Part shown: positions 8,051-52,747 of the stretch, piece after piece
Position numbering within the stretch: position 1 is the first letter of the stretch
How the letters are laid out: each line of letters starts with the position of its first letter
From: Balneola sp.
GTDB taxonomy: Bacteria > Bacteroidota > Rhodothermia > Balneolales > Balneolaceae
NCBI GenBank assembly: GCA_002696035.1
Contig: NZQV01000018.1
Coordinates: 124,001 to 188,000 of the forward strand
Length of the DNA stretch: 64,000 nt
Reading direction: 5' to 3'
Translations under genes and position numbers: made by a program
Notes under the pieces: model-generated
What the model was told of the DNA's origin: nothing
The model's database searches: none
The model's input: the letters and a program-made list of their open reading frames with translations, nothing else

Positions 8051-8132
8051 TTGTTGAGTTCCGCCAAGCTGTCCGTATTTGTTAGCAATAAAAAATATGG
8101 CAGGATATTTGTAAAGATTAACTTCTAAACAG

Positions 8133-8163
8133 TTGAACCGCCCTGTTTATAAGGTTAACTTTA
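8133..8163 (+). promoter_or_regulatory. Bacteroidota-type promoter of secA
   Basis: TTG (8133-8135), a 20-nt spacer and TAACTTTA (8156-8163) fit the TTTG/TAnnTTTG pattern with one mismatch in the -7 box. It predicts a ~35-nt leader before the ATG at 8204. Confidence 0.5.
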
Positions 8164-8203
8164 ACGGTTCACGAAATTTTTAGAAGAGTACGAGTACCCC
8201 ATT

Positions 8204-11200: not shown

Positions 11201-11596
11201 AAGCGAGAGGCTTTTGATATGTTCAAGATGTTGCTGGATGACATCAATAAGGAAGCCACCTCACTTATCTGGAAAGCCGTTCCTGAAGTCAAAGATGACA
11301 GTAAATTACAACAGGCACAGAAGCAAAAATCCCGCTTCGATACTTCCTCAATGGAAACACAACATGCCGATTCAACCGGTATGGGACTTAATTCAGGTCA
11401 GGGACAGCAACAAGATGGAGGCCAACGCCCACAAGGCGGAAATGCCAAGCGTCAACCGGTAGAAGTTGCTGATGAACCCGGCCGAAATGATTACGTGACC
11501 GTTCAAAACATGGATTCTGGCGAAACCAAAGAAGTGAAGTGGAAATACGCCAAACGCATGGTGGATGAGGAAGGATGGATCGTGGTTGAAAAATAA
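8204..11596 (+). CDS. secA: protein translocase ATPase SecA
   Basis: An 1130-residue motor of the Sec pathway that pushes unfolded preproteins through SecYEG using ATP. Visible parts: Walker A in MKTGEGKTLVAIF (about residue 170), the preprotein-binding entry at VNTYLAKRD, the DEVDSILIDEARTPL box, a second helicase core with GRGTDIKLAKG and LRGRAGRQGDPG, and the helical scaffold DQKWMEHLRELD. It is longer than E. coli SecA (901) because of a charged insertion of roughly 180 residues after IISGP, a feature shared by SecA of this phylum. The C-terminus ends WIVVEK without the cysteine zinc-binding tail; a Q/G-rich linker precedes it. Single gene with its own promoter and terminator. Confidence 0.98.
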   Translation: MDILETVGKAITKVFGSKSERDIKKIQPIVDEIKSYEDEMKQLSDEELKAKTEEFKQKIKDATADTIARIKEIKTQLDDIETLSPAEHRELAEELDAMEQQELDIIEEVMDEILPEAFAVLKDTCRRFVGQSWKVGGNETTWEMIPYDVQLVGAIVLHQGKVAEMKTGEGKTLVAIFPAYLNALAGKGVHVITVNTYLAKRDAEWNEPIFNFHGLQVDCIDHYQPSTEQRRQAYKADITYGTNNEFGFDYLRDNMVIEQEQLVQRDHHYTIIDEVDSILIDEARTPLIISGPVPQDNKSDKYVEIKPRVESLVNAQKKLVANLVKEGKQLLDEGDEEKAGLALFRAVRGFPKNSQLRKLQQDPKVQKLIQKTESFYLQDNAKNMPIVDEYLYYAVDPKMNSIEMTEKGREFITKKGEDEDFFVIPDLGEETAEIEKEVEALEEEKVEEVKNNEDLSEDYKEKKVKEIKDEIRQEREKKFNDLHRLFAERGDRIHTVNQLLKAYTNFEREEEYIVQDGKVQIVDEHTGRVLSGRRYSDGLHQAIEAKEQVKVEASTQTYATITLQNYFRMYNKLAGMTGTAETEEGEFNEIYELDVVVIPTNKPIARDDKEDLVFKTKREKFNAAIQKIQEYHEKGQPVLVGTTSVDVSETMSRMLKRAGIPHNVLNAKQHARESEIVKQAGEIGAVTVATNMAGRGTDIKLAKGVKEKGGLAILGTERHESRRIDLQLRGRAGRQGDPGESQFYVSLEDDLMAMFMSDRVANVMDKLSFEEGEVITHPWITKSLERAQSKVEQNNFSIRKKQLEYDDVLNNQRNVIYARRKHALSGEQLRTDILDMLDDLVENLVVDHVAAGDYDGLHEAIIRHLAVDVDYDRETWFKMGESELTDHILNKALEAYRKKEERIAAPLYKVMQRINESNPENRPDKVQVIFTDGIRRMRIVVDVESALENEGKEVARSLEKSAILSIIDQKWMEHLRELDSVKEGIGLRSFAQKDPLLEYKREAFDMFKMLLDDINKEATSLIWKAVPEVKDDSKLQQAQKQKSRFDTSSMETQHADSTGMGLNSGQGQQQDGGQRPQGGNAKRQPVEVADEPGRNDYVTVQNMDSGETKEVKWKYAKRMVDEEGWIVVEK

Positions 11597-11635
11597 GTCA
11601 GGACTCAGTTTTAAATCATGTACTCAAATTACAAG

Positions 11636-11671
11636 AACTGGTTCAGGCATCCGCTTGGACCAGTTTTTTTA
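11636..11671 (+). terminator. Rho-independent terminator after secA
   Basis: AACTGGTTC (11636-11644) pairs with GGACCAGTT (11657-11665) with one mismatch, followed by a run of T residues. Confidence 0.75.
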
Positions 11672-11707
11672 TGGCTTAATATTTTCGGTCACCCTACCCC
11701 TAATTTG

Positions 11708-11873
11708 GGATCTTTTCAGTCTTAAGCGAAGCAGTGACTAAAAAGATATTAGCACGTCAAGTCTTCAGACTTGAGGCAAAGTCCGTGGCTCCACTCTAAG
11801 TCTCCGCTCGGATTACAGTTTTAGTCAAATCCGAAATTTATACTCGCTCAAGACTTAAGAGATCAGCGAGTCT
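11708..11873. repeat. structured intergenic repeat, copy 1
   Basis: About 165 bp, roughly 75-80% identical by eye to 12080-12243. The ends form an imperfect inverted repeat: GATCT.TT.AGTCTT.AGCGA at the left against the reverse complement of CGCTCAAGACTTAAGAGATC at the right. Inside are a near-perfect hairpin CAAGTCT-TC-AGACTTG (11759-11774) and a second stem TCGGATT/AATCCGA. No coding potential. Shape and duplication suggest a non-autonomous mobile element or a structured RNA-like repeat. Confidence 0.65.
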
Positions 11874-11952
11874 TTTCGCAAGAAAACTGTCGGTGATGCT
11901 CGTAATCCAATTATTTTCCAGGAATCATTCTCTGATTTTATGACAACATTTA

Positions 11953-12050
11953 GATTCGCGTCTGAACGGGAATGACGGTTTCGATAGATGAGATATATAG
12001 ATAACGAATGCGGAAACCAACCAAGGGTCATTCCCGCAAAGGCGGGAATC
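11953..12050. repeat. inverted pair of CGGGAATGAC repeats
   Basis: GATTCGCGTCTGAACGGGAATGAC (11953-11976, shown here as two parts: GATTCGCG and CGGGAATGAC) faces its near reverse complement at 12027-12050 (GTCATTCCCG ... CGGGAATC). The right copy alone is a strong hairpin (ATTCCCGCAAAGGCGGGAAT). This GCGGGAATGAC motif is a common extragenic repeat in many bacteria. Confidence 0.5.
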
Positions 12051-12079
12051 TGATTGTCTTTTGTTTACAATTCCCCCGA

Positions 12080-12243
12080 GATCTGTTCAGTCTTGAGCGA
12101 AGCGGTGACTGAAAAGTAGTAGCAAAACAAGTCTTCTGACTTGAGGAAACCCCATGGCACCAACTCTTAAGTCTCCGCTCGGATTGCATGTTTACCCGAA
12201 TCATACATTTTGAACTCGCTCAAGACTTAAGAGATCAGCGGAG
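12080..12243. repeat. structured intergenic repeat, copy 2
   Basis: Second copy of the element at 11708-11873, same orientation. The internal hairpin is preserved with a changed loop (CAAGTC-TTCT-GACTTG), and the terminal inverted repeat is better conserved here (GATCTGTTCAGTCTTGAGCGA at the left). Conserved segments include AGTCTCCGCTCGGATT and CTCGCTCAAGACTTAAGAG. Confidence 0.65.
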
Positions 12244-12288
12244 ATTATGAATTGATCCCCACAAATTTGCTCAGCGAGCCGATCTACG

Positions 12289-13770
12289 TTAATCTAAATC
12301 TGCCGTGATAGGCTGGTTATTTTCGAAATCGAATAGCGTAAGTCGGCGAAGATTATAATAGCCTGTCCAGTAGTTACGAAGCGCCTGAACGTAACTTCGG
12401 CGCGCACTGTCCTTTTCATTTTGAGCTATGAAGAGGTTCGTTACATCGATCTTTCCGATCAGATACCGGTTCTGTGCCACGTTATACCTCCGGTCGGCAA
12501 TTTCGTCCGATACTTTAGCCAATTCCACCTGATCCCGAAGCTGTGAAAACTCACGCACTGTACTACGAACATTCAGATCGAACTGTAGCTTTTGATAGGC
12601 AATGGTATTTGCCGTAGCCGCCTGTTGATTCCGTGCAGCCTGAATTTCCGCTGTATTTTTGCCCCAGTTAAAGATCGGGACCTGAAAGCCTAACGTGAAA
12701 AACTGCCGATTTTGGGGGTCATTATAGAGCTGATCAAAATCTTCGGAAGTTTGGTTCAGTCCATAACTCGCTTGTAAAGTCGCTGAAAAGCCAGCCTCCT
12801 TCCTTGCCTGATCATAGGCCTGATTTGCCTGTATCTCATTTAACTCGAACTCCAGGGAAGTACTATTGTTTTCGCGTGCAAGCTGCAAAGCTCTGTCCAC
12901 ATCTATATTCAGTTCAGGAGCTTCTTCCGGAGCGTTTACATTAACTTGTGTTTCATCGGGGATTCCAAGCAGTGCCTTGAAATTTTCCTCAGCTCGTTCA
13001 AAATTCAACAATGAAGTAGTTAGGGAGTTTTCCGCATTTCGAAGCGCCAGCTCACTTTGCAAAAGATCATTTTCAGCTATACTTCCCACCTGATATCTGC
13101 CTCTCGAAATATTATAGATAGAATCATTCACCGTAACATTGAACTCAGCTACTTCCACGTTGATCTTGGCCAACAGAAAATCGAAAAAACTCTGCGTGGT
13201 ATTGAAAGCCAGGTCCTCCATGTCCTCCACATATTGCTTCTGAGCGATCTGATATCGAAGCGGCTCAGTCTTGTTTCTCCATTTCAAGCTATTGAACTGA
13301 AATAATGGCTGAAAGTAGGTTGCCACCAACGGTGTACTTTGCCAGAAATATACATTCTCACCATCTACACCCCGGTCAAATAAAATAAGCCGGTTGATGC
13401 CACTCGACAACGAAAGCCGCCCACCGGTTGGCATAATGTTTTGGTTGATGGACAGGTTCACAGACGACTGCGACTGACTTTCTTCCTGATACACCGTTGA
13501 GCCATCATCCAGCCGGTTTGAGGTGATCGCACGGTTAAAACCCGGAACGTCTCCGTCAAGGTCAAGACTTGGAAGTAGGTCGGCCTGAAACGATTTATAA
13601 CGCCATTTTGAAGAGATCAGGGCAAAGTTTGCAGCACGGGAAAGCGGACTGTTTTGCTTGGCAATTTCAATACTTTCTTCGAGGGTAAGCGTTTGCTGAT
13701 CCTGTGCATGCAGGTTAAATGAACCTACGATAAAAACCAGGATCAGGAATGCGGGATAAAATTTATTCAT
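12289..13770 (-). CDS. TolC-family outer-membrane efflux protein
   Basis: A 493-residue protein with a signal peptide (cleavage near LHAQ, residue 22) and two long helical repeats rich in N/Q/A/E, typical of TolC: TLEESIEIAKQNSP at the start of the first and DVDRALQLARENN opening the second. It would form the outer-membrane duct for the adaptor and permease encoded upstream. Its start overlaps the permease stop by 8 nt, so the three genes form one operon with this gene last. The substrate is unknown. Confidence 0.92.
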   Translation of the reverse strand: MNKFYPAFLILVFIVGSFNLHAQDQQTLTLEESIEIAKQNSPLSRAANFALISSKWRYKSFQADLLPSLDLDGDVPGFNRAITSNRLDDGSTVYQEESQSQSSVNLSINQNIMPTGGRLSLSSGINRLILFDRGVDGENVYFWQSTPLVATYFQPLFQFNSLKWRNKTEPLRYQIAQKQYVEDMEDLAFNTTQSFFDFLLAKINVEVAEFNVTVNDSIYNISRGRYQVGSIAENDLLQSELALRNAENSLTTSLLNFERAEENFKALLGIPDETQVNVNAPEEAPELNIDVDRALQLARENNSTSLEFELNEIQANQAYDQARKEAGFSATLQASYGLNQTSEDFDQLYNDPQNRQFFTLGFQVPIFNWGKNTAEIQAARNQQAATANTIAYQKLQFDLNVRSTVREFSQLRDQVELAKVSDEIADRRYNVAQNRYLIGKIDVTNLFIAQNEKDSARRSYVQALRNYWTGYYNLRRLTLFDFENNQPITADLD

Positions 13771-15133
13771 GGCGTAATGCGTGTACTGGGTCGTGTTGAG
13801 CCGCTCTTTTTGCGGGATAGTATCCGAATATCACCCCAATAACCAGGGCAACTCCAAAGGATATAAAAATGGACATGGGGGTTACAACCGTTGCAATGTC
13901 TGCGGTAGCTTCAATGGTGTAGCTGAAGCCCATCCCCAAAATAATTCCGATAAAACCGCCGGTTATACTAATGGTCAGTGCCTCTGTTAAAAACTGAAGT
14001 TCGATATCCTTTTTCTGTGCTCCTACGGCCATTCTCACCCCGATCTCCCGATAGCGTTCTACAACCGAAGCAAGCATAATATTCATGATCCCGATCCCCC
14101 CAACGATCAATGAGATGGACGCGATGGAGGAAAGGACAATATTGAAGATCCGCTTGGTGCGTTGTTCCTGCTGAAGGAGTTGCTCGGGGACAATGATCTC
14201 GAAGTCAACCACATCGTTGTGGCGGCGTTTTAGCATCCGCGACAGAACATCTGCAATGGCTCCACTGAATCTGGTATCCGTAACTTTTACGATGAGCTTA
14301 TCGAGCTGATGGTAGTTCGGGTCAGACGTTGAGCTACTGCTGCTTCCGCCCGATGTTGTGATCATAGCTCCGCCCATAAATACAACCGAACTTCCCCCAC
14401 TGCCCTGCAGGTCCTGACCTGTCAGGATCGCCCTGTTTTTGAATCGAAGTAAAACCGTGGTGGCAGGGGCATAGATATCAAGATTGAAATTTCGAATTCC
14501 CAGGTTTTCAATGTTTTCTGAAGAAACTTCTTTCTTTTCGATCACCCCGATCACCGTAAGCCACAAATGCCCTACTTTAATTTGCTTACCAATGGGACTT
14601 TCGCCACCAAAAAATCTCGTTTTCACATCATAACCGATCACAGCTACCGGGTCTGCATTATCGAGCTGTATATTGCTGAAATTACTACCTTCCACAATAT
14701 TGAAGTTGGTAATGTCAAAATAATCTCCATTCACCCCCACCAGCTTTCCGCTTCGCATGCGGGCATTCCGTATGAAGGATGTCTCATACATGATCTCCGG
14801 ACTCACCTTCTCTACCTCAGGAACCAGTTCTTTGATACTTTCTAGATCTTTAAGAGTGAGTCCCGGCGAATATTTATTTTGATTTCCCTGATCGCTTTGA
14901 TCATTCAGATTGCCCTCTACCTGCTCTATTACCGGCTGAACGATCACATTATTTGTACCTAAAAGCTCCATTTGCTGTAGCACTTCCTGTTGAGCTCCGG
15001 TACCGATCGCCAGCATTGCGATCACAGAAGAAACCCCAAATATAATTCCCAGGGAAGTAAGAAAAGCCCGCAGTTTATTTCGCTGAATGGCTTCCAGGGC
15101 AATGTCGAAATTGTAGAGAATTTTCTGAAGCAT
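13763..15133 (-). CDS. MacB-like ABC transporter permease (FtsX-type), no ATPase domain
   Basis: A 456-residue membrane protein with an N-terminal MacB core domain (RNKLRAFLTSLGIIFGVSSV, one TM), a large periplasmic domain (residues ~50-310) and three C-terminal TM segments in the FtsX style (IMNIMLASVVERYREIGVRMAVGA near 345-370). E. coli MacB carries its nucleotide-binding domain on the same chain; here that domain is absent and no ATPase gene is adjacent, so it must be supplied from elsewhere. It sits between adaptor and TolC genes (6 nt from the adaptor stop). Role: export of a lipophilic compound or peptide, substrate unknown. Confidence 0.9.
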   Translation of the reverse strand: MLQKILYNFDIALEAIQRNKLRAFLTSLGIIFGVSSVIAMLAIGTGAQQEVLQQMELLGTNNVIVQPVIEQVEGNLNDQSDQGNQNKYSPGLTLKDLESIKELVPEVEKVSPEIMYETSFIRNARMRSGKLVGVNGDYFDITNFNIVEGSNFSNIQLDNADPVAVIGYDVKTRFFGGESPIGKQIKVGHLWLTVIGVIEKKEVSSENIENLGIRNFNLDIYAPATTVLLRFKNRAILTGQDLQGSGGSSVVFMGGAMITTSGGSSSSSTSDPNYHQLDKLIVKVTDTRFSGAIADVLSRMLKRRHNDVVDFEIIVPEQLLQQEQRTKRIFNIVLSSIASISLIVGGIGIMNIMLASVVERYREIGVRMAVGAQKKDIELQFLTEALTISITGGFIGIILGMGFSYTIEATADIATVVTPMSIFISFGVALVIGVIFGYYPAKRAAQHDPVHALRHE

Positions 15134-41054: not shown

Positions 41055-41603
41055 ATGAACTTTGAAGAGAAACTAAATAAAGGATTTGAATTACTACAAG
41101 AGAAAGACATTGATTATGCTCTGGATGTAGCTCGGGACCTGCAAAAAGAATTTCCCGATGCACATGAAGCCTGGTACTTAGAGGCTTTGGTAATGCAACA
41201 GCTAAATCAATGGGACCACAGCCAAAAGGCCATTGAAAAAGCAATAGAACTTTCGGATGAAAATGCTCCCTACTATAATTTAAGGGGAAACGTCCGCATG
41301 CAGCTTGAAAAACTGGATGAGGCAGGCAAAGATTTTGATAAGGCTATTGAGATCAATGATAGTTCTGCAGCACACCGTAATAAAGTATTGCTGATGCTGA
41401 TGACCGATCGTGGACAGGAAGCTATTCCCTATCTCATTCAGCGAATCAAGAACGACCCTAAGGATGCCGAGAACTGGATCCTGATGGGTGATATGATCCA
41501 GAAAGGTGGTCAGCCGGATAAGGCCCGGACCTACTACGAGCAAGCGCTGAAGATCGATCCCGATAACGAATACGCCAAACGACAGCTCGAAGAAGAAGGA
41601 TAA
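41055..41603 (+). CDS. tetratricopeptide-repeat protein
   Basis: A 182-residue soluble protein built of TPR helices: EAWYLEALVMQQLNQWDHSQKAIEKAIELSDENAPYY, then GNVRMQLEKLDEAGKDFDKAIEIND, and AENWILMGDMIQKGGQPDKARTYYEQALKIDPDNEYA near the end. It would act as a protein-interaction scaffold; no partner can be named. Last gene of the dnaA operon, 12 nt after the small membrane protein. Confidence 0.88.
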   Translation: MNFEEKLNKGFELLQEKDIDYALDVARDLQKEFPDAHEAWYLEALVMQQLNQWDHSQKAIEKAIELSDENAPYYNLRGNVRMQLEKLDEAGKDFDKAIEINDSSAAHRNKVLLMLMTDRGQEAIPYLIQRIKNDPKDAENWILMGDMIQKGGQPDKARTYYEQALKIDPDNEYAKRQLEEEG

Positions 41604-41722
41604 AGAATATCCAACATTGAACATTCAATAATGAATGTTCAAGTTTATTGGTGGACAGATACCCAAACTATCGCAAGCGTCCGCTTGTGATATGTGTTTT
41701 ACCGGCTTTTTCTCGCACCTAT

Positions 41723-41743
41723 CGCTCTGCGTTGGAGCGAATA
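41723..41743. repeat. REP-like repeat, second copy
   Basis: CGCTCTGCGTTGGAGCGAATA differs at two positions from the core at 32945-32965. It forms a TCGCTC/GAGCGA hairpin with a 7-nt loop. Confidence 0.5.
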
Positions 41744-41837
41744 CATGGATAAGCTATAGACTTGGGAAACTCGCCTTATTGTTGAAAAGAGCAGTTCGCC
41801 TAGACCGGTGGAATATCTGAATGGGTGAAAACACATC

Positions 41838-41877
41838 AAAAAGCCCCACACATAAATTTTGTGCAGGGCTTTTATTT
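41838..41877. terminator. bidirectional terminator
   Basis: AAAAGCCC (41839-41846) pairs with GGGCTTTT (41866-41873), with A and T runs outside. It ends the heme operon on the minus strand and may back up the dnaA operon. Confidence 0.8.
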
Positions 41878-41998
41878 TGGCCGGAAAAAATGTGGACGCC
41901 GTATACTGATCTGTAAATCTATTCAGCGACTCTGGAGAGACGCTGTACATTTCCTTCATGCCAAGGCTTGTATTTCACATACAACGCTCACAGGTCTT

Positions 41999-43699
41999 TT
42001 AGTGAGCATGCTCCATTGCCCCCTTTGAGGCAGTTGCCGGCTCTGCTACTTCTTCCCCATCATTAAAATGATCGATGGATTCCTGGATCAAACTTTCCAC
42101 CCACTCTACAAATAAAGGATGTGGAGCAAATCCTTCACCGTTGTGCTTGAATTCCAGATCGCCAAGCCAGCGCTGAGCATGTCCTCCTTGTGTAGTTCGA
42201 GCCGGAACAACGATCGCTGTACCGCCATCTTTCTGTGCTTCGGTTACCATATTTCGGACATTGGCAATGTGTTTATCTCGAAGATCAGGCCAGTCTTCAC
42301 GCCAGTTTTCAAATTTAAAATCCCTGAAGTTGTAGCCTTTTTCATCAGCTGTTGCTTCCATGTGAGCCGTGATACTCTCCAGATTCCTGAGCCAGCGGGC
42401 ATTCCCTTCTTCCGTTCGCGTACCATGACCAACCAGGATCACTGTTTCTTTTTCCGGAGTTTCACTCAGTCCTATAGCGCGATCAAGTAATGCTTCTGCA
42501 AAAAGCGGAGAATCTTCAAGTCCGCCTGTGGTGTAAAATTCACTGCTGCTTATCACACGTTTTGGAGCGCCCATACCGTGCATCATCATGCCTCCGTGCC
42601 CCATACTTTCGCGCATGCCAATGGTGTATTCAATGGAAGATTTGAAACTGGATTCCAAAGAAAAGATCCGCAGAACAGTGATGGCTGTTGCTCCCTCCTT
42701 CTCCAGTTTTCGGGTTGCCCTTTCGATGAGATCGGCATCTCCCATACTGAATGCATACTCGACCTTGTACTTGTCATGAAGTTCGGCAATTGCATCCATC
42801 ATGGTGCGGTTCCAGTTATAATCAGAACCATGTGGCATGAAGATAACCCCAAGGTTTTCTTTGGATACCGGGAGGTAACTATTGGCTTGCCGAGCTAACC
42901 AAAGCTCTACGGTCTCATGCGGAGTAATGTCCTTGCCATTGTAAAATGTTCCATCCTTGAGAACGATAGAACGAATTCTGGAACTAAAGGCCATCATTCC
43001 GTCTAACTTGCTGGTGAAACCGAAAGGAATAACTACCGGAGTCAAGCCTTTTTCCTGTATGACTGCGAGTGTTTCTTGCAGCTTTTTTTGAGCATCAGCT
43101 GACCTTCCACCGGCATCGCCAAAAACAACGACTTCTTCACTCTCAAAACTGAAGAATCCGTGATTCATATGCAGTATTTGTTCTACATCAGCTTTGATGG
43201 CTTTCTTTTCTTCCTCATTTGAAGCTCCTGCTGCTACTACAACCAGGGCTTCATTTTTAGAATCTTGTGACAATTCGTTAATTCGATCTACCAAGATCTC
43301 AGCTGTCAGAAAACTGTTGTTCATGGTTGAAGCAAATTCGACGGGAAGTTTGGTAAATTTTTTATCGCTTAGTCGCTCTAAAGCCAATTTGTACAGCGGA
43401 TGATCATCTGAAACAAACAACGGAAGGACCACCAGCTCATCCGCACCCTGCTCCTCCAGTGATTGAATTCCTTCTTTCAAAAACCGATCGGTTTCTTCGT
43501 GAGTGATAATGGAAAGACTGGTAGTATAATTCTCACTGAAACTGGCATGTAAATCACGAACTTCCTGATTCCCCATAAATCCACGGTCGGGTGACATTAC
43601 GAGAAAGCCGGTGTCTTGAGCCATGGAGCTATTCACCCCAAGAAATGGGAAAAGCGTCACTAAAAGCAGAATTCGAATATTATTTTTCAAAAAATTCAT
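41999..43699 (-). CDS. secreted CbiX/SirB-like chelatase-domain protein of the heme locus
   Basis: A 566-residue protein with a signal peptide (cleavage near SSMAQ, residue 28). Four chelatase-like half-domains can be traced, near residues 30-140, 150-250, 280-410 and 417-545. Class II chelatase histidines appear in the later ones: VIFMPHGSD (H290), VILVGHGTR (H425) and TQGGHAQ (H507); the first domain has lost the HG motif (MSPDRG) but has H100. A Met/His-rich loop (M362 to M376, with H368 and H374) and a C-terminal HAH could bind metal. Cytoplasmic relatives insert metals into sirohydrochlorin. Exported next to HmuY and a TonB receptor, this one may act on heme or cobalamin precursors. That is inference. 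Confidence 0.85.
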   Translation of the reverse strand: MNFLKNNIRILLLVTLFPFLGVNSSMAQDTGFLVMSPDRGFMGNQEVRDLHASFSENYTTSLSIITHEETDRFLKEGIQSLEEQGADELVVLPLFVSDDHPLYKLALERLSDKKFTKLPVEFASTMNNSFLTAEILVDRINELSQDSKNEALVVVAAGASNEEEKKAIKADVEQILHMNHGFFSFESEEVVVFGDAGGRSADAQKKLQETLAVIQEKGLTPVVIPFGFTSKLDGMMAFSSRIRSIVLKDGTFYNGKDITPHETVELWLARQANSYLPVSKENLGVIFMPHGSDYNWNRTMMDAIAELHDKYKVEYAFSMGDADLIERATRKLEKEGATAITVLRIFSLESSFKSSIEYTIGMRESMGHGGMMMHGMGAPKRVISSSEFYTTGGLEDSPLFAEALLDRAIGLSETPEKETVILVGHGTRTEEGNARWLRNLESITAHMEATADEKGYNFRDFKFENWREDWPDLRDKHIANVRNMVTEAQKDGGTAIVVPARTTQGGHAQRWLGDLEFKHNGEGFAPHPLFVEWVESLIQESIDHFNDGEEVAEPATASKGAMEHAH

Positions 43700-43739
43700 A
43701 ATAGAAGGTTAAGAGTCTAGAGTTATGGATGAATCAGGG

Positions 43740-44768
43740 TTACTCGAAATACACTGAACCGTCGGTTTGTACCGCATACTCAAATGTGAAATAACGAGCT
43801 TCGGGTCGGGTAGCAGAATCAGCAAACTCTTCGGTAGAGGTATCCGGATTGCCCTCGTAATAACTGATCATGCGGACTTTAGCGTACTTCCCATCGGGAG
43901 TTTGTACGATCAGGGTCAATCCATCCACAGGGAGTACAGCGTGGCTCGGAGGCGTATTCCCGGTATAAGAGTACCAGTTTGAATTGTCTTCTTCGTAGCC
44001 TTCGGTTGGCGCTTCAGTCACATCCGCAAAAGGAATATTCAAGTCTAGAATACCGCCGCCATTTTCAGCATTAGCGTTGATAGCCGTTCCGGAAAATGCA
44101 ATATCCCATTGAGAAGAAGACGCATCTTCTACGATCTCGCCGGTATCCAGATCAAAGTAGGTCTCGGTATCTTCGTGATATAGCTGGGTATTTTCAGCTT
44201 CGGTTTGCAAGGTGTAATTGAAGGTAAAAAAACGACTCTCGTTTTCTGTATCGGAATCCCTGTAATAACTCAGGATCTCAATTTTGGCAAACTCTCCTTC
44301 GGGCGTTTGCACTACAATAGAATGATCTTTTTTTGGGGTGATGAAATGCGTGTTAAAGTCATAATCGTACCAGGAACTTCGTTCTGTCTCCGAAGCATAT
44401 CCGTCGGCCGGAGCGTCTTGAAGATCAGCATATCCGGTGCTGATCACCTGAATTCCTCCACCATGACCAGCGTTCGCGATGAGTGTGGTACCTCCAAAGC
44501 CAATATCCCAGCTCGCATCGGTAGAGTCTTCAATAATTTCTCCGGTGTTTAGATCAAAGAACGTATAACCGGGATTGGTTTCGGTATTTCCTTCTACATT
44601 TTCTTCAGGAGCTCGTGTGGCACTCAGGGTATTTACGTTACCGGGGATGTCCTCAGCCATTTCTGCAACTACAGGTTGCGGTCCGTCATTTCCTGTCGAA
44701 TCACAAGCTGTGAAGGCTAAGGATGCAAACAGAAGTACTACTAATAATTTGTGTTGGGTTAATTGCAT
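43740..44768 (-). CDS. lipoprotein with two tandem HmuY domains
   Basis: A 342-residue protein starting at ATG 44768, giving a lipoprotein signal with Cys22 (SLAFTAC). The upstream ATG 44825 would put 19 polar residues in front and overlap the receptor gene. Two HmuY domains (residues ~66-190 and ~198-340) share the same order: FFDLNTGEII/YFDLDTGEIV, SWDIGF/QWDIAF, NA..GGGI, and IVVQTPEGEFAKIEILSYY/LIVQTPDGKYAKVRMISYY. HmuY captures heme outside the cell and passes it to a TonB receptor in Porphyromonas. Single-domain forms are usual, so the duplication is notable. It follows the receptor gene by 28 nt and precedes the chelatase-like gene by 40 nt. Confidence 0.88.
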   Translation of the reverse strand: MQLTQHKLLVVLLFASLAFTACDSTGNDGPQPVVAEMAEDIPGNVNTLSATRAPEENVEGNTETNPGYTFFDLNTGEIIEDSTDASWDIGFGGTTLIANAGHGGGIQVISTGYADLQDAPADGYASETERSSWYDYDFNTHFITPKKDHSIVVQTPEGEFAKIEILSYYRDSDTENESRFFTFNYTLQTEAENTQLYHEDTETYFDLDTGEIVEDASSSQWDIAFSGTAINANAENGGGILDLNIPFADVTEAPTEGYEEDNSNWYSYTGNTPPSHAVLPVDGLTLIVQTPDGKYAKVRMISYYEGNPDTSTEEFADSATRPEARYFTFEYAVQTDGSVYFE

Positions 44769-44796
44769 GGTGTATTTGGAGTGATTTTTTAAAGGA

Positions 44797-47145
44797 TTAA
44801 TAGAGTTGAATTTTAAATTGCGCATAAAATGTTCTGCCGGGATTTGAAGGCATAAACCTAGGACTTTGGAAATTCAGCAGATTATCGACGCCTACCTGAA
44901 GTCGGTATTTGCCGGCAAATATTTTTGAGAGGGAGGCATTGATCGTAGTCTTTTTCAGATACGATTCTGTTGTGCCCAGGAATGAAGAGGTAGCAATGTC
45001 TTTTGGATCCAGTGCATACTCACCCTCATCAGGGGTTTTGTTGTTGTTGGAATCGCCAAACCAGTATCGGCCGCGATATAGGAATCGCAGGTTGGAGTCA
45101 ATGCCCAGCCGATCAAAAGTATAAAACAGCTTTGCATTCCAGCTGTGCTTAGAACGGTTGAACATCGGGATATAATCTTTGCGGGTTTGGGTCACCACCC
45201 TCCCATCTACTACTTCATCAAATTCGCGGGTGATCTGTCGCCTGGCATCTAAATATTGATAGCCTATGCTGAACCTGAAGTTTTCAATTTCTGTGGAGCT
45301 AAACCTTAATTCCGTTTCAATTCCCTGCGTATAGATCTTATTCAGATTGAAATAAGAAAACACCGACTGGCCGTTACTCTTCACCGCAATACGCTGTGTA
45401 TCAATAAGATCTTGAACATCATTTCGGAAAGCATTTAACCGAAGCTGAATCCCATCAAAAGGAAACAGATCGAAGCCGACATTGTATGCGAATGATTGCT
45501 CGGATTTGATCTTCCCAATGCTATTCGGATTGATGAACAATTCCTCAATTTGTCCTTCCGATTCAAGACGATCGACTCCATCGCTTACGGTATTGGAACC
45601 AAATACGCTATATCCGGCCTGGGCATTTGTGAAATTCAAATACAGCTGACGGAACTCGGGAGCTTTAAATCCACCGCCCACTGAGGCGCGAATATGGATC
45701 AATTCATTGGGTTTATATAAGCCGGAGAACTTGGGACTCCACTGAGAAGCGTATTCATTATGAGCATCAAACCGAAAGCCGGTCGTAATAGATAATTCGT
45801 CTGTGATACTCCATTCATGCTGGCCGAATAGAAAATAACTTTGAAAAGGAGGGACATCGGTATAATTTTCTGATACCAACTCCTCGTGGTTCATTCCCAC
45901 CCCAAAAATGGACGTATGCTGCTTATTCCAGAATGTTGAACTTTTCAGCTCATATTTATTCAGTGTTTGATCGAAATTGCTGTTAGCATATAGTTCACCG
46001 CTCTCAATAAATTGAGATTCCGACTCGCTGTTAAATCGACTAAAAAATGCTGATGCATCAAAGACCTGTCGGTCTCCCAGCCTGAAACTTATTTCCGGAC
46101 TGGCACTGTAATTTTTCTGTCCTTCATCCTGGAGAATTCGCTGAATTCCACTTTCTCTGTCTATATCAACCAGGGAATTGTGCCCCTCCTGATAATAGCG
46201 GGACTGTACCGAAAACGATAAAGCCGGAGTCACATCATACTCTACTCCCCCTGAGAATGTGTAGCTGTTGTATTCAGGAATCGTTGGAGCAATGGTTTCT
46301 TCATTCAGATCAAAGCCATTCGATCCATTAGTATTAGCAAAAAATTGTCCACTAAGCTTTTCTTTTCGGAATGAAAGATTGGTAGATCCGTCAAAAGAAG
46401 CGTGGGATCCCAGCTGTCCGGTTACATCCCAGGACAACGGCTCATTGCCTTTTTCGGTGATGATATTGATGACCCCAGCCAGTGCATCACTGCCCCAAAG
46501 TGCGGAAGATGGCCCTTTTACGATCTCGATCTGCTTCACGTCGCCAATCGATAACCGATCCAAATTCAACGTGCCCGCAGAGCGACCGATCACAGGCTGA
46601 TTATCGATCATGATCAGCGTGTAATTCGGATCAAATCCCTGCATTTGCAGGCCCGTGCCATGATCAGAAATGATGTTGAGTCCCGTTTGCTCCAGTAAAA
46701 TATCACTAAGCCGGGTACTTCCACTTAATTCAATTTCTTCATCCGATATCACCGAAACCGGAATGCTAACTTCTTCCACATCGCGCTGTGTTCGGGTGGC
46801 CGTGATCACCATGGTTCCGGAATCATATACCGCTTCTTTTAAAACAATGATGACACTTCCTGCCGAGTTACTATTCAGGTCAATGCGCTTTTTTGCCGTT
46901 TCATATCCAAGTCGACTGACCACAAGATTTACAGATCCTTTGCTGATCTCTCCCACAAAGATCTCAAACTCCCCCGCTGAATTTGAGATGGTCGTAGAAC
47001 CGAATTCCTTTATATAAATATGTGACTCGGAAAGAGGTTCACCCTCTTCATTTTGGATGTTGCCCTGTATGGTTTGTGCTTGACCGGAAATCGCAGATAA
47101 TAGAAAAAGGAAGCTAAATGTGAATTTTAGCGCCATTAGGTTCAA
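44797..47145 (-). CDS. TonB-dependent receptor, probable heme receptor
   Basis: A 782-residue outer-membrane receptor. Signal peptide ends near SGQAQ (residue 23); a CarboxypepD_reg-like domain follows (about 27-105); the plug spans ~115-225 (DILLEQTGLNIISDHG, IVKGPSSALWGSDALAGVINIITEKG), then a barrel ending in FYAQFKIQLY. Its plug resembles the HmuR/BtuB/Cir group. With the HmuY lipoprotein and chelatase-like gene downstream it forms a heme-uptake operon in the hmuRY sense (order here receptor-HmuY-chelatase). A strong promoter with two palindromes lies upstream (47180-47230). Confidence 0.92.
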   Translation of the reverse strand: MNLMALKFTFSFLFLLSAISGQAQTIQGNIQNEEGEPLSESHIYIKEFGSTTISNSAGEFEIFVGEISKGSVNLVVSRLGYETAKKRIDLNSNSAGSVIIVLKEAVYDSGTMVITATRTQRDVEEVSIPVSVISDEEIELSGSTRLSDILLEQTGLNIISDHGTGLQMQGFDPNYTLIMIDNQPVIGRSAGTLNLDRLSIGDVKQIEIVKGPSSALWGSDALAGVINIITEKGNEPLSWDVTGQLGSHASFDGSTNLSFRKEKLSGQFFANTNGSNGFDLNEETIAPTIPEYNSYTFSGGVEYDVTPALSFSVQSRYYQEGHNSLVDIDRESGIQRILQDEGQKNYSASPEISFRLGDRQVFDASAFFSRFNSESESQFIESGELYANSNFDQTLNKYELKSSTFWNKQHTSIFGVGMNHEELVSENYTDVPPFQSYFLFGQHEWSITDELSITTGFRFDAHNEYASQWSPKFSGLYKPNELIHIRASVGGGFKAPEFRQLYLNFTNAQAGYSVFGSNTVSDGVDRLESEGQIEELFINPNSIGKIKSEQSFAYNVGFDLFPFDGIQLRLNAFRNDVQDLIDTQRIAVKSNGQSVFSYFNLNKIYTQGIETELRFSSTEIENFRFSIGYQYLDARRQITREFDEVVDGRVVTQTRKDYIPMFNRSKHSWNAKLFYTFDRLGIDSNLRFLYRGRYWFGDSNNNKTPDEGEYALDPKDIATSSFLGTTESYLKKTTINASLSKIFAGKYRLQVGVDNLLNFQSPRFMPSNPGRTFYAQFKIQLY

Positions 47146-47179
47146 ATCTAAATAGTAGTTAGCGGAATAATTTCTGCGC

Positions 47180-47210
47180 CAAACTTATTTAGACTTGTTA
47201 TAAATAACAA
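47180..47210 (-). promoter_or_regulatory. Bacteroidota-type promoter of the heme operon
   Basis: On the minus strand, TTG (47210-47208), a 20-nt spacer and TAAGTTTG (47187-47180) match TTTG-N19/20-TAnnTTTG with a perfect -7 box. Start of transcription would be near 47173, 28 nt before the ATG. Confidence 0.6.
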
Positions 47211-47230
47211 CACTATTTAGAATTATTCTA
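47195..47230 (-). promoter_or_regulatory. two palindromes, possible iron/heme operator
   Basis: TTGTTAT-AA-ATAACAA (47195-47210) covers the -33 region and spacer. TAGAAT-T-ATTCTA (47218-47230), a 6-1-6 palindrome of the shape seen in Fur boxes, lies just upstream. Which regulator binds is not known from the sequence. Confidence 0.45.
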
Positions 47231-47293
47231 TATAATTGTTTTGGGATTTCGGTATTGAAGAGATTAAATGGGGTTTAGCTTTTTTCGTTTTCA

Positions 47294-47594
47294 AACGTCA
47301 GACCATTTCCGAATTATTCAGGTAAACATTATGGTGGGCAAATAAGGCTATTCAATTCGGTTTTGCCTTTTCAGTGGTCAGACGAATTCTTTTCTTCGCA
47401 AGTTCTCGTCCGACGACTACAGCTCGTCCGACGAATGATTCTAGGCCAGATTGTTCTTTTTTGACCCTCAAACAGATTGCCCTTTCCAATCGTCGGACCA
47501 CTTCTTATTGGATTTTGCAACCTAATTGGTGGAGGGTAAAAGCTTATACCGAGGGTTTCTCGCTTCAGTGGCCAGACGAATTCTTTATTCTTCC
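47294..47594. repeat. cluster of GTCNGACGA-type motifs
   Basis: Related motifs: AACGTCAGACCATTTC (47294-47309, inverted), TCAGTGGTCAGACGAATTC (47371-47389), CTCGTCCGACGA twice (47405-47435), AATCGTCGGACCACTTC (47488-47504, inverted) and TCAGTGGCCAGACGAATTC (47565-47583). The first and last direct copies share TTCAGTGG.CAGACGAATTCTTT, about 194 bp apart. Confidence 0.55.
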
Positions 47595-47665
47595 ACATAC
47601 TTTTCCTGAATGAATTTTTAATTCAGCTTTTCTTTTAAGGAAACCGATCTTTTTGCAGGAAAGCA

Positions 47666-47697
47666 TTGAATTTTGAAAGCTAAAAGTGCTATCTTTG
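47666..47697 (+). promoter_or_regulatory. promoter of tRNA-Leu(GAG)
   Basis: TTG (47666-47668), 21-nt spacer, and a perfect TATCTTTG (47690-47697), 23 nt upstream of the tRNA 5' end. Confidence 0.6.
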
Positions 47698-47720
47698 TCG
47701 CCCTTCTAAAATGTATTTTT

Positions 47721-47804
47721 GCTCACGTGGCGGAACTGGTAGACGCGTGCGCTTGAGGGGCGTATGGCCTAACGGCCGTGGAGGTTCGATTCCTCTCGTG
47801 AGCA
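47721..47804 (+). tRNA. tRNA-Leu(GAG)
   Basis: An 84-nt class II tRNA. Acceptor GCTCACG pairs with CGTGAGC (47797-47803), discriminator A; anticodon stem TGCGC/GCGTA around loop TTGAGGG gives anticodon GAG; a long variable arm (ATGGCCTAACGGCCGT) follows, then T arm GAGG-TTCGATT-CCTC. CCA is not encoded. A terminator follows. Confidence 0.95.
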
Positions 47805-47814
47805 CATAAAAATT

Positions 47815-47851
47815 AAGCCAAGCTTTGTTTAATCAATAGCTTGGCTTTTTT
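47815..47851 (+). terminator. terminator after tRNA-Leu
   Basis: AAGCCAAGCT (47815-47824) and AGCTTGGCTT (47838-47847) form a perfect 10-bp stem followed by T residues. Confidence 0.9.
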
Positions 47852-47887
47852 GATTATCCCTACCTGAACAACATTTATACCACTTTT

Positions 47888-50347
47888 CTAAAACAACCGT
47901 GCCACACTCACTCCAAAAAAGAACCCAGGCTGATCTATACGATACGCCACATCCGCGCGGAAGAGGTTAAAGATATTACTGAGCGAAAGTCCGGCTTCAA
48001 TATGCAGATCCTCGGCCGTTATTGGGGATAATCCGTAACGGGAATTGAATTCATTGACCTGCTCCTGCTTCACCCAGGTTTTCCCAACCCCGCCAAATGC
48101 GATGATACTCAACCCGGTTTTGGAGGCATCCCTCCATCCCAGCATTTCCAGTGGAACACTTTTGAAGTTATGCTCGGCATTTAAAGCAAAATAGCTAGCC
48201 CCTTCATAAGGGATGAATCGCTTTGCGCGAAAAGCACCGAATGGGGTAAAAATTCCGGGAGCTACATCTAACACTTCATTTTTTTGGATGGGAAGATCTC
48301 CCAGATAAGTTCCTGCATTCACCCTCATGTTCAACGTGTTCGGGAAGAACCGCCGCTGATAAAAAGTTTCAAATTCACGATACAGATCTACTTTAAAACG
48401 GGTGTAATCCCAGCTGCTGCCCAAGAATGTAGCGGATTGTTCGACGGTGAATTCAAAGTCATCGGCTCCTATAATGCCATAAGCCTTTTTATTATTTCCG
48501 CCCCGCCAAGTAAACTGAACAGCACTCAGATTGCCTTCATCCACATAACTGTTGGGGCGCTGAATCTCATCCCGACCTAAAATATCGTAATCTGTTTTAT
48601 AGTCGATGCTACTGTGATCTTCATAGGCATAGGTTAATTCTAATCGTCCCGGAAAATCCGACATCAGGTAGGCGGCCCCCAGTGCAAATCTCTTATTCCG
48701 GTAATAATCAAAGTAATCGGGGTAGCCTATGATCGAAGTTACCGTGGTCATCTCCGGGGTGAACATATCGGAATTGTAACGAGTCTCATTTTTCACCCGG
48801 TATTCTGAAATCAGCCCAAACCTGCGGGTTGATTTCAATGGCCGCCAGCTCATCTCGATGCCGTATGAAAATGACTCTAAGCCCGAACCATACCCGGTAC
48901 TATATCCTGCAAATATCTCAGAGTATAACCGATTGTCTACATAACCCCGTGAATGCTTCAATCCGCCGTAAAAAGCGTCCACCCGGTTGAATTTTGCTTG
49001 CGGGGTGAGGTTTCTGGTCAGTGCAGAAAACAAGTTACTGCGCCCGCTTCTTGATGTAGTTGATGCGCTGTCGGTACCTGAACCGGAACCACTGCTTACC
49101 GATGCTCCTGATTCATCTTCATCCCAATCTATAAAACGGGTTAAAAATCCCTGAGGGCGAAATGCTTTTTCGAGAGTAGTGTTGCTATCTACCGTGGCGT
49201 AAGCGAATTCTTCCTCGGTATCCAGTGGAATGATCTCGATCTCATTTACAAACAAGGAATCCCCTGAATTGATGGTAGTCGAATCCACAGAAAAACGATC
49301 GTTGTCATTAAAAATTGAATCCGGATGCGTGATGTTTACCTCATAATCACTGAGTCGGGCCACCTGCCTGAAACCAATTGGGGGGAATCGAAGTCCAACC
49401 ACGCCAATCTCCACCAGGCCTTCGATACGGACATCCACAGGAAGCCAGAACTCTCCGCCAAAATTGCTGAATTGTTGTTTGTAGGAAAGATCAAAATCCT
49501 GAACCGGAGGAGGAAACTGAACCACGGAATTAGGTTTAAGATCCATTTCAAGGACCGCGTATTCTTCTCCCAAAACAAAAATGGTCCCTTCAAAAAGCGG
49601 CTGGAGTTTACGATCAGAGGATACAGACAGCTCATAAACCACCTGACCATCCAGCGACTGAATATCCTCGAGGGTGAAATTGTAGAACTTGAGGGCATCC
49701 GGGTGCGTAACGCCCACCATATTAAACCCGGCAATATCCAGATTATCATCATAGAAATTAGGGAGATAACTTACCCCGGCAAAGTTATCGGCCGCGTCAA
49801 TATTAGCTGTTTGTCTTCTTGATTTCAGGATCTCCCGAGATCCTTTTTCTTTATCCCAATAGGCTACTGAAATACTTTCGGTAATGGAAATGATGGTGGT
49901 ATCATTTCGGAGCTGCTGTCGCGTATAAGCTTCTGCCTTGTACGTTTTCAGATTGGCTCTCCACTCTTGCTTCCTTCGAATCACTTCCTTCATAATGGCC
50001 GTTGCAGGATCTTCGCCAGTCACCACGATCTCTCCCATTTGAGCAACGGAGGGTTTCAGAATAAAATCAATGGGACCGGAATTTGCATTTACGGTCTTTT
50101 CCTGACTTTCGAAACCTAAAAATCGCACCACCACTGTGACGGGAAACTCCTTTACGGAAAGACTGAATTCTCCATCCTGATTGGAGATTGTTCCTTTATA
50201 CGTATCTTTGATAATAACGTGGGCAGCAGGAAGAGGCTCTCCGGTCTCGGCGTCTACGATTTTACCGGATACTTTTTGTTGAGCCAGCGCTGGAAGTGTT
50301 CCAATTCCGAAGATAAGAAGAAGTACGAGGACCGAAGATCTATACAT
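47888..50347 (-). CDS. DUF5686/carboxypeptidase-regulatory outer-membrane protein
   Basis: An 819-residue protein: signal peptide (cleavage near LPALAQ, residue 22), a CarboxypepD_reg-like domain (~25-110, GKIVDAETGEPLPAAHVIIKD), then a DUF5686 region (KEVIRRKQEWRANLKTYKAEAYTRQ; QFSNFGGEFWLPVDVRIEG) and a C-terminal 16-strand-like barrel ending in FFFGVSVARLF. This layout is restricted to Bacteroidota and its function is not established; an outer-membrane transport or assembly role is plausible. Upstream lies tRNA-Arg (divergent). Confidence 0.88.
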   Translation of the reverse strand: MYRSSVLVLLLIFGIGTLPALAQQKVSGKIVDAETGEPLPAAHVIIKDTYKGTISNQDGEFSLSVKEFPVTVVVRFLGFESQEKTVNANSGPIDFILKPSVAQMGEIVVTGEDPATAIMKEVIRRKQEWRANLKTYKAEAYTRQQLRNDTTIISITESISVAYWDKEKGSREILKSRRQTANIDAADNFAGVSYLPNFYDDNLDIAGFNMVGVTHPDALKFYNFTLEDIQSLDGQVVYELSVSSDRKLQPLFEGTIFVLGEEYAVLEMDLKPNSVVQFPPPVQDFDLSYKQQFSNFGGEFWLPVDVRIEGLVEIGVVGLRFPPIGFRQVARLSDYEVNITHPDSIFNDNDRFSVDSTTINSGDSLFVNEIEIIPLDTEEEFAYATVDSNTTLEKAFRPQGFLTRFIDWDEDESGASVSSGSGSGTDSASTTSRSGRSNLFSALTRNLTPQAKFNRVDAFYGGLKHSRGYVDNRLYSEIFAGYSTGYGSGLESFSYGIEMSWRPLKSTRRFGLISEYRVKNETRYNSDMFTPEMTTVTSIIGYPDYFDYYRNKRFALGAAYLMSDFPGRLELTYAYEDHSSIDYKTDYDILGRDEIQRPNSYVDEGNLSAVQFTWRGGNNKKAYGIIGADDFEFTVEQSATFLGSSWDYTRFKVDLYREFETFYQRRFFPNTLNMRVNAGTYLGDLPIQKNEVLDVAPGIFTPFGAFRAKRFIPYEGASYFALNAEHNFKSVPLEMLGWRDASKTGLSIIAFGGVGKTWVKQEQVNEFNSRYGLSPITAEDLHIEAGLSLSNIFNLFRADVAYRIDQPGFFFGVSVARLF

Positions 50348-51602: not shown

Positions 51603-52655
51603 TTAAGCGTTCGCTTTCTGTTCTAATACTACAGCCGGCTCCAGAGGTTTCACAACTACGGGCTCATCTACGTCAAAGATCAAACGATTGTCGGTGTGCA
51701 CGATGTATTTATCCCCTTTGAAAAGCACGTGATAGGTGATATCGTGTCCTCTGAATTCACGTCCCGTTATGATCCCTGTTTCTTTACCGTTGGGCTTACA
51801 TCGCTCTATGGTGAGATGTTCCGGGCGTATTGAACACAATATAAATCCTTCCGCCTCACGATTGATCTTAACAGGACCTAGTCTTGTTTCCACATTGTCA
51901 GAGCCATCAGCATGGGCACGGAATAAATTAGTTCTCCCCAAAAATTGGGCTACAAATTGTGTGTTGGGGTGATAGTATACCTCTTCCGGCGTACCGATCT
52001 GTTCGATCTGTCCATTATTCATCACTGCAATACGGTCTGCAAAAGAAAGAGCTTCTTCCTGATCATGTGTCACCAGGATCGCGCTCATTCCGGATTTCTT
52101 TAGGATGGCACGAACTTCCTTTCGGGTTGAATCCCGCAACATGGCATCCAATCCCGAGAACGGCTCATCCATTAAAACCAATTTTGGTTTGGGAGCAATG
52201 GCACGGGCTAAAGCTACGCGCTGTTGCTGTCCGCCTGAGAGCTCATCCGGCATGCGGTGTTTATATTTTTCCATTCCGGTGCGGCAAAGTACTTCTTCTG
52301 CCAGAACCGGTCGTTTTTTTCGCTCTACTTCCTTCAACCCAAAGGCTACATTTTCGAGCGCATTCATATGCGGAAATAGTGCATAATCCTGGAATACAAA
52401 CCCTACTTTTCTTTTTTGGGGTGACAAGTGTACTCCAGGGCTTTCAACCAGCTCACCTTCAATATGGATCTCACCGTCTTCACAATGCTCAAATCCTGCG
52501 ATGAGTCTAAGCGTAGTGGTTTTACCACACCCACTAGGCCCCAGCAGGGCAAATATTTCGTCTTCTTTCACTTCAAAGCCAACCTGATTTACAACAGGAC
52601 CACTTTGGTCAAAAGACTTGGTTAAGCCGGATATGTGTAGTAATGATTTTTTCAT
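51603..52655 (-). CDS. ABC transporter ATP-binding protein (FbpC/PotA type)
   Basis: A 350-residue ATPase: Walker A GPSGCGKTTT, Q-loop in VFQDYALFPHM, signature LSGGQQQRVAL, Walker B LVLMDEPFSGLD, and the switch histidine in VTHDQEEALSF. The C-terminal regulatory domain (residues ~240-350, HLTIERCKPNG) marks it as the Fe3+/spermidine-type importer group. No permease or binding-protein gene is adjacent, so the partners are encoded elsewhere. First of a likely three-gene set with GlsB and HAD genes. Confidence 0.93.
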   Translation of the reverse strand: MKKSLLHISGLTKSFDQSGPVVNQVGFEVKEDEIFALLGPSGCGKTTTLRLIAGFEHCEDGEIHIEGELVESPGVHLSPQKRKVGFVFQDYALFPHMNALENVAFGLKEVERKKRPVLAEEVLCRTGMEKYKHRMPDELSGGQQQRVALARAIAPKPKLVLMDEPFSGLDAMLRDSTRKEVRAILKKSGMSAILVTHDQEEALSFADRIAVMNNGQIEQIGTPEEVYYHPNTQFVAQFLGRTNLFRAHADGSDNVETRLGPVKINREAEGFILCSIRPEHLTIERCKPNGKETGIITGREFRGHDITYHVLFKGDKYIVHTDNRLIFDVDEPVVVKPLEPAVVLEQKANA

Positions 52656-52747
52656 GGGGTATACTGAACCAAAAAATCTTCATTTAGATTCAGTCTACAT
52701 AAGATACGGACAATTTCGTCATTTACGAAAGATTTGATGCCTGAATA

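Follow-up and report, generated by a model that had tools for sequence, protein, structure and literature searches.

Class II chelatases of the CbiX and SirB type are cytoplasmic enzymes. CbiKP of Desulfovibrio vulgaris, a one-unit protein of the CbiK family, is reportedly a periplasmic cobaltochelatase, and a paper title styles it a haem binding protein. Porphyromonas gingivalis has IhtB/FetB, an exported CbiK-like, class II chelatase-like lipoprotein that belongs to a TonB-receptor system with the transporter proteins IhtC-E, is reported not to be regulated by PgFur, and has been suggested to take the iron out of heme (PMC10913741, PMC6460266). It was only recently that de-chelation was shown to release iron from heme, in the case of HmuS, a class I, CobN-type membrane protein of more than 1400 residues that acts outside the cytoplasm with HmuY and a TonB receptor as partners, carries a Met-rich insertion, and holds heme through Met79 and His254 (PMC12583661). 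Here we describe a three-gene operon of Balneola sp. that encodes a TonB-dependent receptor, a tandem-HmuY lipoprotein and a 566-residue exported protein that is CbiX-like. It lies in a stretch of 64,000 nucleotides (the window; GenBank assembly GCA_002696035.1, contig NZQV01000018.1, positions 124,001 to 188,000; G000:C22:124001-188000 in our genome set), from a genome (G000) of 3.97 Mb that is 97.16% complete. The system is real, conserved and linked to iron.

Our preferred reading, to which we give a probability a little below one half (about 0.48), is that these genes form a periplasmic heme de-chelatase operon: HmuY captures heme, the receptor imports it, and the exported chelatase strips its iron. 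The exported protein would thus take the role of HmuS with an architecture not related to it, a class II fold instead of a large CobN-type membrane protein, and with the same kinds of partner, a Met-rich insertion and a predicted Met/His heme site. The locus shares HmuY and the TonB receptor with the hmuYRSTUV operon of Bacteroides and Porphyromonas and differs from it in being a three-gene run, in a genome where neither a CobN-family protein nor a FecCD permease (the family to which we take HmuU-type permeases to belong) was found and where HmuT and HmuV were not searched. Unlike IhtB/FetB, the window protein is CbiX-like, has HmuY as its partner, sits under an iron-type palindrome and, in its long form, has tandem units. 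The initial annotation of this stretch considered the arrangement undescribed, which is too strong, since exported class II chelatase-like heme proteins were already known (IhtB/FetB and CbiKP). For HmuY together with an exported CbiX-type protein, the His-Met-His site and the shared palindrome described below, no description was found in the literature searched, which included few subscription papers and, for the palindrome, covered the Irr element only.

The operon and the fold of the exported protein

All three are minus-strand genes, in agreement with the first annotation, and are transcribed in the order receptor, HmuY lipoprotein, exported protein, with intergenic gaps of 28 and 40 bases when the preferred ATG starts are used (Table 1). 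For the receptor, the ATG at 47136 is a likelier start than the end of the open reading frame (ORF) at 47145; for the lipoprotein, the ATG at 44768 is likelier and yields a lipobox-like LAFTAC. Just upstream, on the plus strand, is a tRNA-Leu (gag) at 47721-47805.

Table 1. Features of the heme-uptake-like operon and its putative regulon, in window coordinates
Feature	Position	Strand	Basis
TonB-dependent outer-membrane receptor (operon gene 1)	44797..47136 (ORF open to 47145)	-	Pfam Plug 6.2e-19, barrel 4.5e-36
Tandem-HmuY lipoprotein	43740..44768 (ORF open to 44825)	-	Pfam HmuY 2.8e-18, genome search, domain 1 fold
HmuY domain 1	44214..44567	-	Genome search (G000:C22:168214-168567)
HmuY domain 2	43848..44171	-	Genome search (G000:C22:167848-168171)
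Exported protein, two tandem SirB-like class II chelatase units, 566 residues	41999..43699	-	CbiX E 1.2e-8, model, fold match
N-terminal chelatase-like unit, residues 29-279, with PDRGF.GN stretch	42863..43615	-	Z 20.1 to SirB 5zt7_A
C-terminal chelatase-like unit, residues 281-548, common to short forms	42056..42859	-	Residues 275-551, Z 19.3 to SirB 5zt8_B
His290, equivalent of SirB His10, lobe 1 of C-terminal unit	42830..42832	-	72/72 sequences
Met319, at the place of CbiX 3lyh Glu (SirB Glu43, CfbA Glu42)	42743..42745	-	70/72 sequences; register from 3lyh alignment
His425, second "His10", lobe 2 of C-terminal unit	42425..42427	-	70/72 sequences
Met/His-rich loop, residues 366-380	42560..42604	-	Met plus His enriched in 50/72 sequences
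Operator-like palindrome 1	47186..47206	.	1 mismatch to TATTTAGAN5TCTAAATA
Operator-like palindrome 2	47214..47234	.	1 mismatch to TATTTAGAN5TCTAAATA
ABC transporter ATPase with TOBE domain, same putative regulon	51603..52655	-	Palindrome upstream
Palindrome 5' of ABC ATPase	52681..52701	.	2 mismatches

An AlphaFold model of the exported protein, built with 27 sequences, is good (mean pLDDT 88.6, pTM 0.86), and structural comparison (VIA-align 2) gives both of its halves the two-lobed alpha/beta fold of class II chelatases, the fold that the initial annotation had expected a structure prediction to find. The N-terminal half superposes on SirB over 231 residues at 3.2 A, and the C-terminal half over 233 residues at 2.8 A with 18% identity. 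Because both halves match SirB, the protein is better described as two complete units than as the four loose CbiX/SirB-like half-domains first proposed. The next matches of the N-terminal unit are ferrochelatases (Z 16 to 17), Salmonella CbiK (Z 16.3), Desulfovibrio CbiKP (2xvz, Z 16.2) and P. gingivalis FetB (9b86, Z 16.1), a ranking that informs only on the families listed in the structure library. By sequence, among 27 members Pfam assigned CbiX to 21, Ferrochelatase to two and CbiK (PF06180) to one (8.6e-4), the window protein scored 39.3 bits against the NCBIfam CfbA equivalog cut-off of 120, its PDB match to FetB was weak (E 0.26), and Pfam found no CobN-type sequence in it. In place of the cytoplasmic location typical of CbiX and SirB, the window protein has, by a crude test, a hydrophobic N-terminal segment, as do 59 of the 72 sequences compared.

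The receptor has the Plug and barrel domains that confirm its annotation. Its best NCBIfam model is TonB-hemin, at 133.9 bits, under the cut-off of 316.85. FRAP/NPNL is a heme-receptor motif; with one regular expression a similar motif was seen in the window receptor only, 1 of 20. In an alignment of 17 receptors His162 and His462 are present in 16 and His667 in all. We draw nothing from either observation.

The lipoprotein belongs to the HmuY family (Pfam PF14064, 67 bits against a cut-off of 27), and the two HmuY domains first annotated were recovered. Its model is only fair (mean pLDDT 75.0, pTM 0.60): domain 1 matches Bacteroides fragilis HmuY Bf-2 (8b6a) with Z 16.5 and P. gingivalis HmuY (3h8t) with Z 15.2, and domain 2 is barely covered. 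Bf-2 is also nearest by sequence (E 2.2e-25), followed by Bf-3 (8b61, E 1e-16) and P. gingivalis HmuY (E 2.2e-14). P. gingivalis HmuY uses H134 and H166 as heme-iron ligands, and Bf-2 prefers protoporphyrin and does not coordinate iron (PMC12106395). Here a loop histidine is frequent near the His166 place, displaced by some residues, and the His134 loop is shorter. Many relatives have a single HmuY domain, so the tandem arrangement is not needed for the system.

A conserved His-Met-His site

The C-terminal unit holds the conserved site. Counts were made over 72 sequences, 45 long forms with both units and 27 short forms (about 300-330 residues, the second unit only); proteins of less than 280 residues or at most 100 bits were excluded, and the loci L073, L074, L075 and L078 were dropped as repeats of genes in G282, G092, G151 and G199. 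H290 is present in 72 of 72, and the triplet H290, M319 and H425 in 70 of 72. Forty-two contig loci had been found by the peptide patterns PDRGF[ML]GN or PHGS[DE]Y[NTD]W, so the invariance of PDRG, and in part that of H290, follows from the search itself; neither pattern includes M319 or H425. The remaining two sequences, which have H-E-Y, are both from one genome (G173), where locus L052 (9064-12341) encodes a TonB protein and two CbiX-like lipoproteins with a PepSY_TM-like protein between them. This pair is the only one among the 72 to retain Glu at the place of Met319, and it has Tyr at that of His425.

The metal site of Bacillus subtilis SirB consists of His10, Glu43 and His76; CfbA has two His-Glu-His sets, and the places of the second set in SirB are Arg134 and Leu200 (PMC11301274). 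In the family described here the fold and His10 of these enzymes are kept and the rest of the site is not: the place of Glu43 is Met in 70 of 72, the His76 place has no conserved His, the highest count in any column between residues 340 and 361 of the window protein being 14 of 72, and in an alignment to CfbA the corresponding His75 falls in an insertion. What has been kept is the His10 of the second lobe, H425. In the N-terminal unit, Arg39 occupies the His10 place in 45 of 45 long forms (position judged by eye). The initial annotation had named H290, H425 and H507 as site histidines; the first two are conserved, M319 is conserved and had not been listed, and H507, present in 6 of 45 long forms and none of the 27 short forms, is excluded by its poor conservation. 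The Met/His-rich loop seen at first reading is real: in 50 of 72 sequences its share of Met plus His is twofold or more that of the whole protein. CfbA carries a His-rich loop at the equivalent place, so such a loop is not unique to this family.

In the two-lobe chelatases that have been reviewed, the histidine pair stays within a single lobe, which may be either of the two; the small symmetric CbiX-S binds its substrate between histidines that come from both subunits (PMC7689651). Since the reviewed two-lobe enzymes keep both histidines in one lobe, one histidine per lobe is a different pattern. We infer from homology that H290 and H425 are opposed across the cleft, and a His-Met-His arrangement of this kind could grip heme from both faces. 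This site and the palindrome shared by the operons are the findings that go beyond the initial annotation.

Distribution and linkage to HmuY

In a phylum sample of 394 genomes, the chelatase-like protein was found in 40, HmuY in 132 and both in 32. HmuY thus occurs in 32 of the 40 chelatase-positive genomes vs 100 of the 354 others (Fisher p 2.4e-10, ignoring relatedness). Half of the genomes with both (16 of 32) have HmuY adjacent (within 3 kb), in the order receptor, HmuY, chelatase, with one extra gene between them in G074. The trio of HmuY, CbiX-like protein and TonB receptor recurs across lineages. The closest long form on a named contig, from Gracilimonas mengyeensis (L073), is 78% identical; G282, used repeatedly below, belongs to the same genus as the window.

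Contigs with other phylum labels, among them Nitrospirota, Ignavibacteriae and Acidobacteria, carry long forms as well; the labels come from record titles, mostly of metagenome bins, and may reflect mis-binning. The trio is found on an Ignavibacteriae contig (L110) and, reordered, on Nitrospirota contigs (L088, L089, L104), with HmuY confirmed by Pfam in the Nitrospira locus L089 (6.3e-19) and by a custom profile only in L088 and L104. At 23 of the 38 non-duplicate contig loci a receptor-profile match, weak in some cases, shares the gene run of the chelatase-like gene. A quick tree of the C-terminal unit (70 of the 72 rows; a short search, with several long branches) groups 44 long forms with one short form, that of G085, with a support of 98. 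Because they group together, the long form looks as if it arose once and then spread across phyla; the G085 short form has perhaps lost its N-terminal unit.

Several neighbourhoods depart from the simple trio. A Nitrospira run (L092, 2339-13401) contains exporter proteins of the HlyD and FtsX/MacB types, TonB, a long form, a receptor, a second CbiX and a PepSY_TM-like membrane protein, and L090 and L094 resemble it in gene layout; PepSY_TM proteins can be periplasmic iron reductases. Locus L050 of G074 (7043-13826) has a receptor, HmuY, a 203-residue CbiX and a short chelatase-like gene, followed by a gene in which cytochrome c is fused to an FTR1 iron permease. In L034 of G092 (8645-10788) the genes upstream of the window operon are kept and HmuY is missing; ahead of the chelatase-like gene there is only a receptor stub of 131 residues, two palindromes lie upstream, and a receptor and a tandem HmuY are on another contig (L062).

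A shared palindrome and probable iron-type control

The palindrome TATTTAGAN5TCTAAATA occurs twice upstream of the window receptor gene. Its core, at up to two mismatches, lies upstream of the receptor or receptor pair at 11 of 19 trio loci, and at all eight receptor-HmuY loci whose chelatase gene is not adjacent (for G151, shuffled sequences did equally well in 6%). Chelatase genes unlinked to HmuY have it too, at 10 of the 16 tested (nine at one mismatch or fewer, G199 at two), a test outside which 11 further chelatase-positive genomes lie. Among the other six, the G360 gene has no palindrome directly upstream and two at the head of its gene run, the second short paralog of G282 has a marginal two-mismatch site, and no palindrome was found at the short paralog of G000 or at the genes of G159, G348 and G297. 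Three short paralogs of the window's genus (L049, at 9114-10067 on G000:C25, L061 and L070) have no hydrophobic N-terminus and no site at one mismatch or fewer, and perhaps have a different, cytoplasmic role; the cytoplasmic-looking copies are the same ones that are without a good palindrome.

G000 and G282 share palindromes ahead of sufB, of the genes for a solute-binding lipoprotein and an ABC ATPase, of DUF4856 together with imelysin, and of a class III cytochrome c gene (the Pfam assignments were made on one of the two genes in each pair); G282 has further sites at feoAB, two more TonB receptors and a stand-alone long form. As the element is common to sufB, feoAB and imelysin genes, the control looks iron-type, and the palindrome looks like the mark of an iron regulon, and would be bound by an iron regulator. 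It also resembles the Irr iron control element, TTTAGAANNNTTCTAAA. An element of that name is mentioned in one paper (PMC3413700).

Other genes share the element. The window ABC ATPase and the solute-binding lipoprotein (L132, on another contig) both carry it; their nearest NCBIfam models are phosphonate and polyamine types, below cut-off, and not ferric, so "iron ABC importer" would be a guess at their role. A 151-residue protein (L135, L143) carries it in G000 and G282, as does a class III cytochrome c gene whose divergent neighbour codes for 189 residues (L131, L137). A cobalamin role had been considered on account of a gene of about 1210 residues that precedes the short form in some loci and was first taken for MetH; its N-terminus reads, by eye, like 2-oxoglutarate dehydrogenase E1, and the lead was dropped. 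Apart from tRNA, Rfam gave no match, cobalamin riboswitch included, in positions 41500-48500 of the window and in seven related loci.

Proposed mechanism and alternatives

The initial annotation had suggested that heme capture is paired with periplasmic metal removal or insertion through a chelatase fold; the fold and the pairing with HmuY and the TonB receptor hold up, and removal is the likelier of the two reactions. If removal is correct, the following sequence can be proposed. Under iron-starvation-type control of the operon, HmuY on the cell surface would catch heme or a similar metalloporphyrin, and the TonB receptor would move it inward and hand it over to the exported protein. The C-terminal unit would be the working unit, with H290 and H425, one per lobe, clamping heme between the lobes. 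M319, in place of the SirB glutamate, would sit near the heme iron and let it leave, the Met/His-rich loop may serve as the landing place for reduced iron, and the porphyrin would be released. Iron could then enter the cytoplasm through Feo, FTR1, Nramp or ABC transporters, varying by organism.

The rest of the genome bears on this proposal. Neither G000 nor any of the 32 genomes with both HmuY and the chelatase-like protein has a CobN-family (PF02514) match. FecCD permeases, present in 16 of 19 genomes surveyed for iron and heme genes, were not found in G000, G282 or G092, other permease types not having been searched; G282 lacks a found FecCD permease yet has siderophore-type TonB receptors with the palindrome (L139, L142). 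The absence of HmuS and of an obvious heme permease from G000 favours iron release outside the inner membrane, with the qualification that negatives in G000 come from a genome that is not fully complete. The PF01126 heme oxygenase was found in none of the 19 genomes, a search that did not extend to HugZ- and IsdG-type heme degraders. Nramp is present in 13 of 19, G000 included, FeoB in 9 and FTR1 in 4.

Several observations count against iron removal by this operon. First, the HmuY lipoprotein is closest to the porphyrin-preferring Bf-2, which leaves heme as the ligand, like the direction of the reaction, something that we infer. Second, linkage is incomplete: HmuY is not adjacent in 16 of the 32 genomes that have both, and was not found in 8 of the 40 chelatase-positive genomes. 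Third, the palindrome was not found at 8 of 19 trio loci (five of family f5, G305, G030 and L110), and in G000 it is not enriched, with 10 sites, one of them inside an ORF (L133), vs 9 for a reversed control. In G282 there are 18 vs 6, and in the window the core has 6 matches vs 5.1 expected. The case for the palindrome rests on its position and its repetition in relatives, not on such counts. Fourth, FeoB and FTR1 were not found in G000, and no reductase gene lies within the window operon. Finally, CobN-family matches occur in 103 of the 394 genomes (85 of them in family f25) and in 9 of the 132 HmuY genomes, and the contrast between HmuY genomes with the chelatase-like protein (0 of 32) and those without (9 of 100) is not significant (p 0.11), so mutual exclusion with CobN/HmuS is not supported.

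Three other explanations need to be weighed. The exported protein might be a periplasmic heme carrier that uses the chelatase fold as a two-lobed binder and holds or passes heme with its iron kept. The loss of the canonical metal-insertion triad would suit a binder, as would the title given to CbiKP; periplasmic binding proteins and LacI-type folds are also among the high-ranking Foldseek matches, with poor superposition, and the heme-binding head and neck of HmuS resemble both class II chelatases and binding proteins (PMC12583661). However, the three genomes without a found FecCD permease would offer such a carrier no partner of that family for intact heme, and the Met/His loop and the link to FTR1 in G074 point to free metal, so we consider a carrier doubtful.

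Alternatively, HmuY could supply a metal-free or foreign porphyrin into which the exported protein inserts a metal, or whose metal it exchanges. The kinship with Bf-2 and the class II fold itself fit this, and P. gingivalis FetB has been credited in a review with the formation of MnPPIX (PMC13402209). Yet the His-Glu-His insertion site is lost, the ferrochelatase HemH is already present in 19 of 19 genomes, and the palindrome is of iron type, all of which make insertion or exchange improbable. That the two proteins instead obtain iron from a non-heme ligand, another tetrapyrrole or a siderophore, is very unlikely given the tetrapyrrole chelatase fold and family, even though the runner-up Bf-3 binds neither heme nor porphyrin (PMC12106395), the receptor scores under the hemin cut-off, and the trio locus L057 adjoins an MxcH-like siderophore-type receptor (below its model cut-off).

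Significance

Most HmuY-bearing genomes of the phylum sample (123 of 132) have no CobN-family match, which raises the question of their route to heme iron. The exported chelatase-fold protein is a candidate that is small, probably soluble, and testable as a de-chelatase. If the de-chelatase reading is true, two unrelated scaffolds, HmuS and an exported chelatase, would have reached like features, and an insertion enzyme would prove convertible to the opposite task by the retention of one histidine in each lobe and a change of glutamate to methionine. We would extend the proposal, tentatively, to a widespread and unnamed group of exported class II chelatases with a His-Met-His heme-stripping site, which may be an evolutionarily independent route to oxygen-free iron release that substitutes for HmuS and heme oxygenase in Balneolota/Rhodothermota, Ignavibacteriota, Nitrospirota and others. 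The Nitrospira and other environmental contigs would then extend the use of heme iron well past host-associated bacteria.

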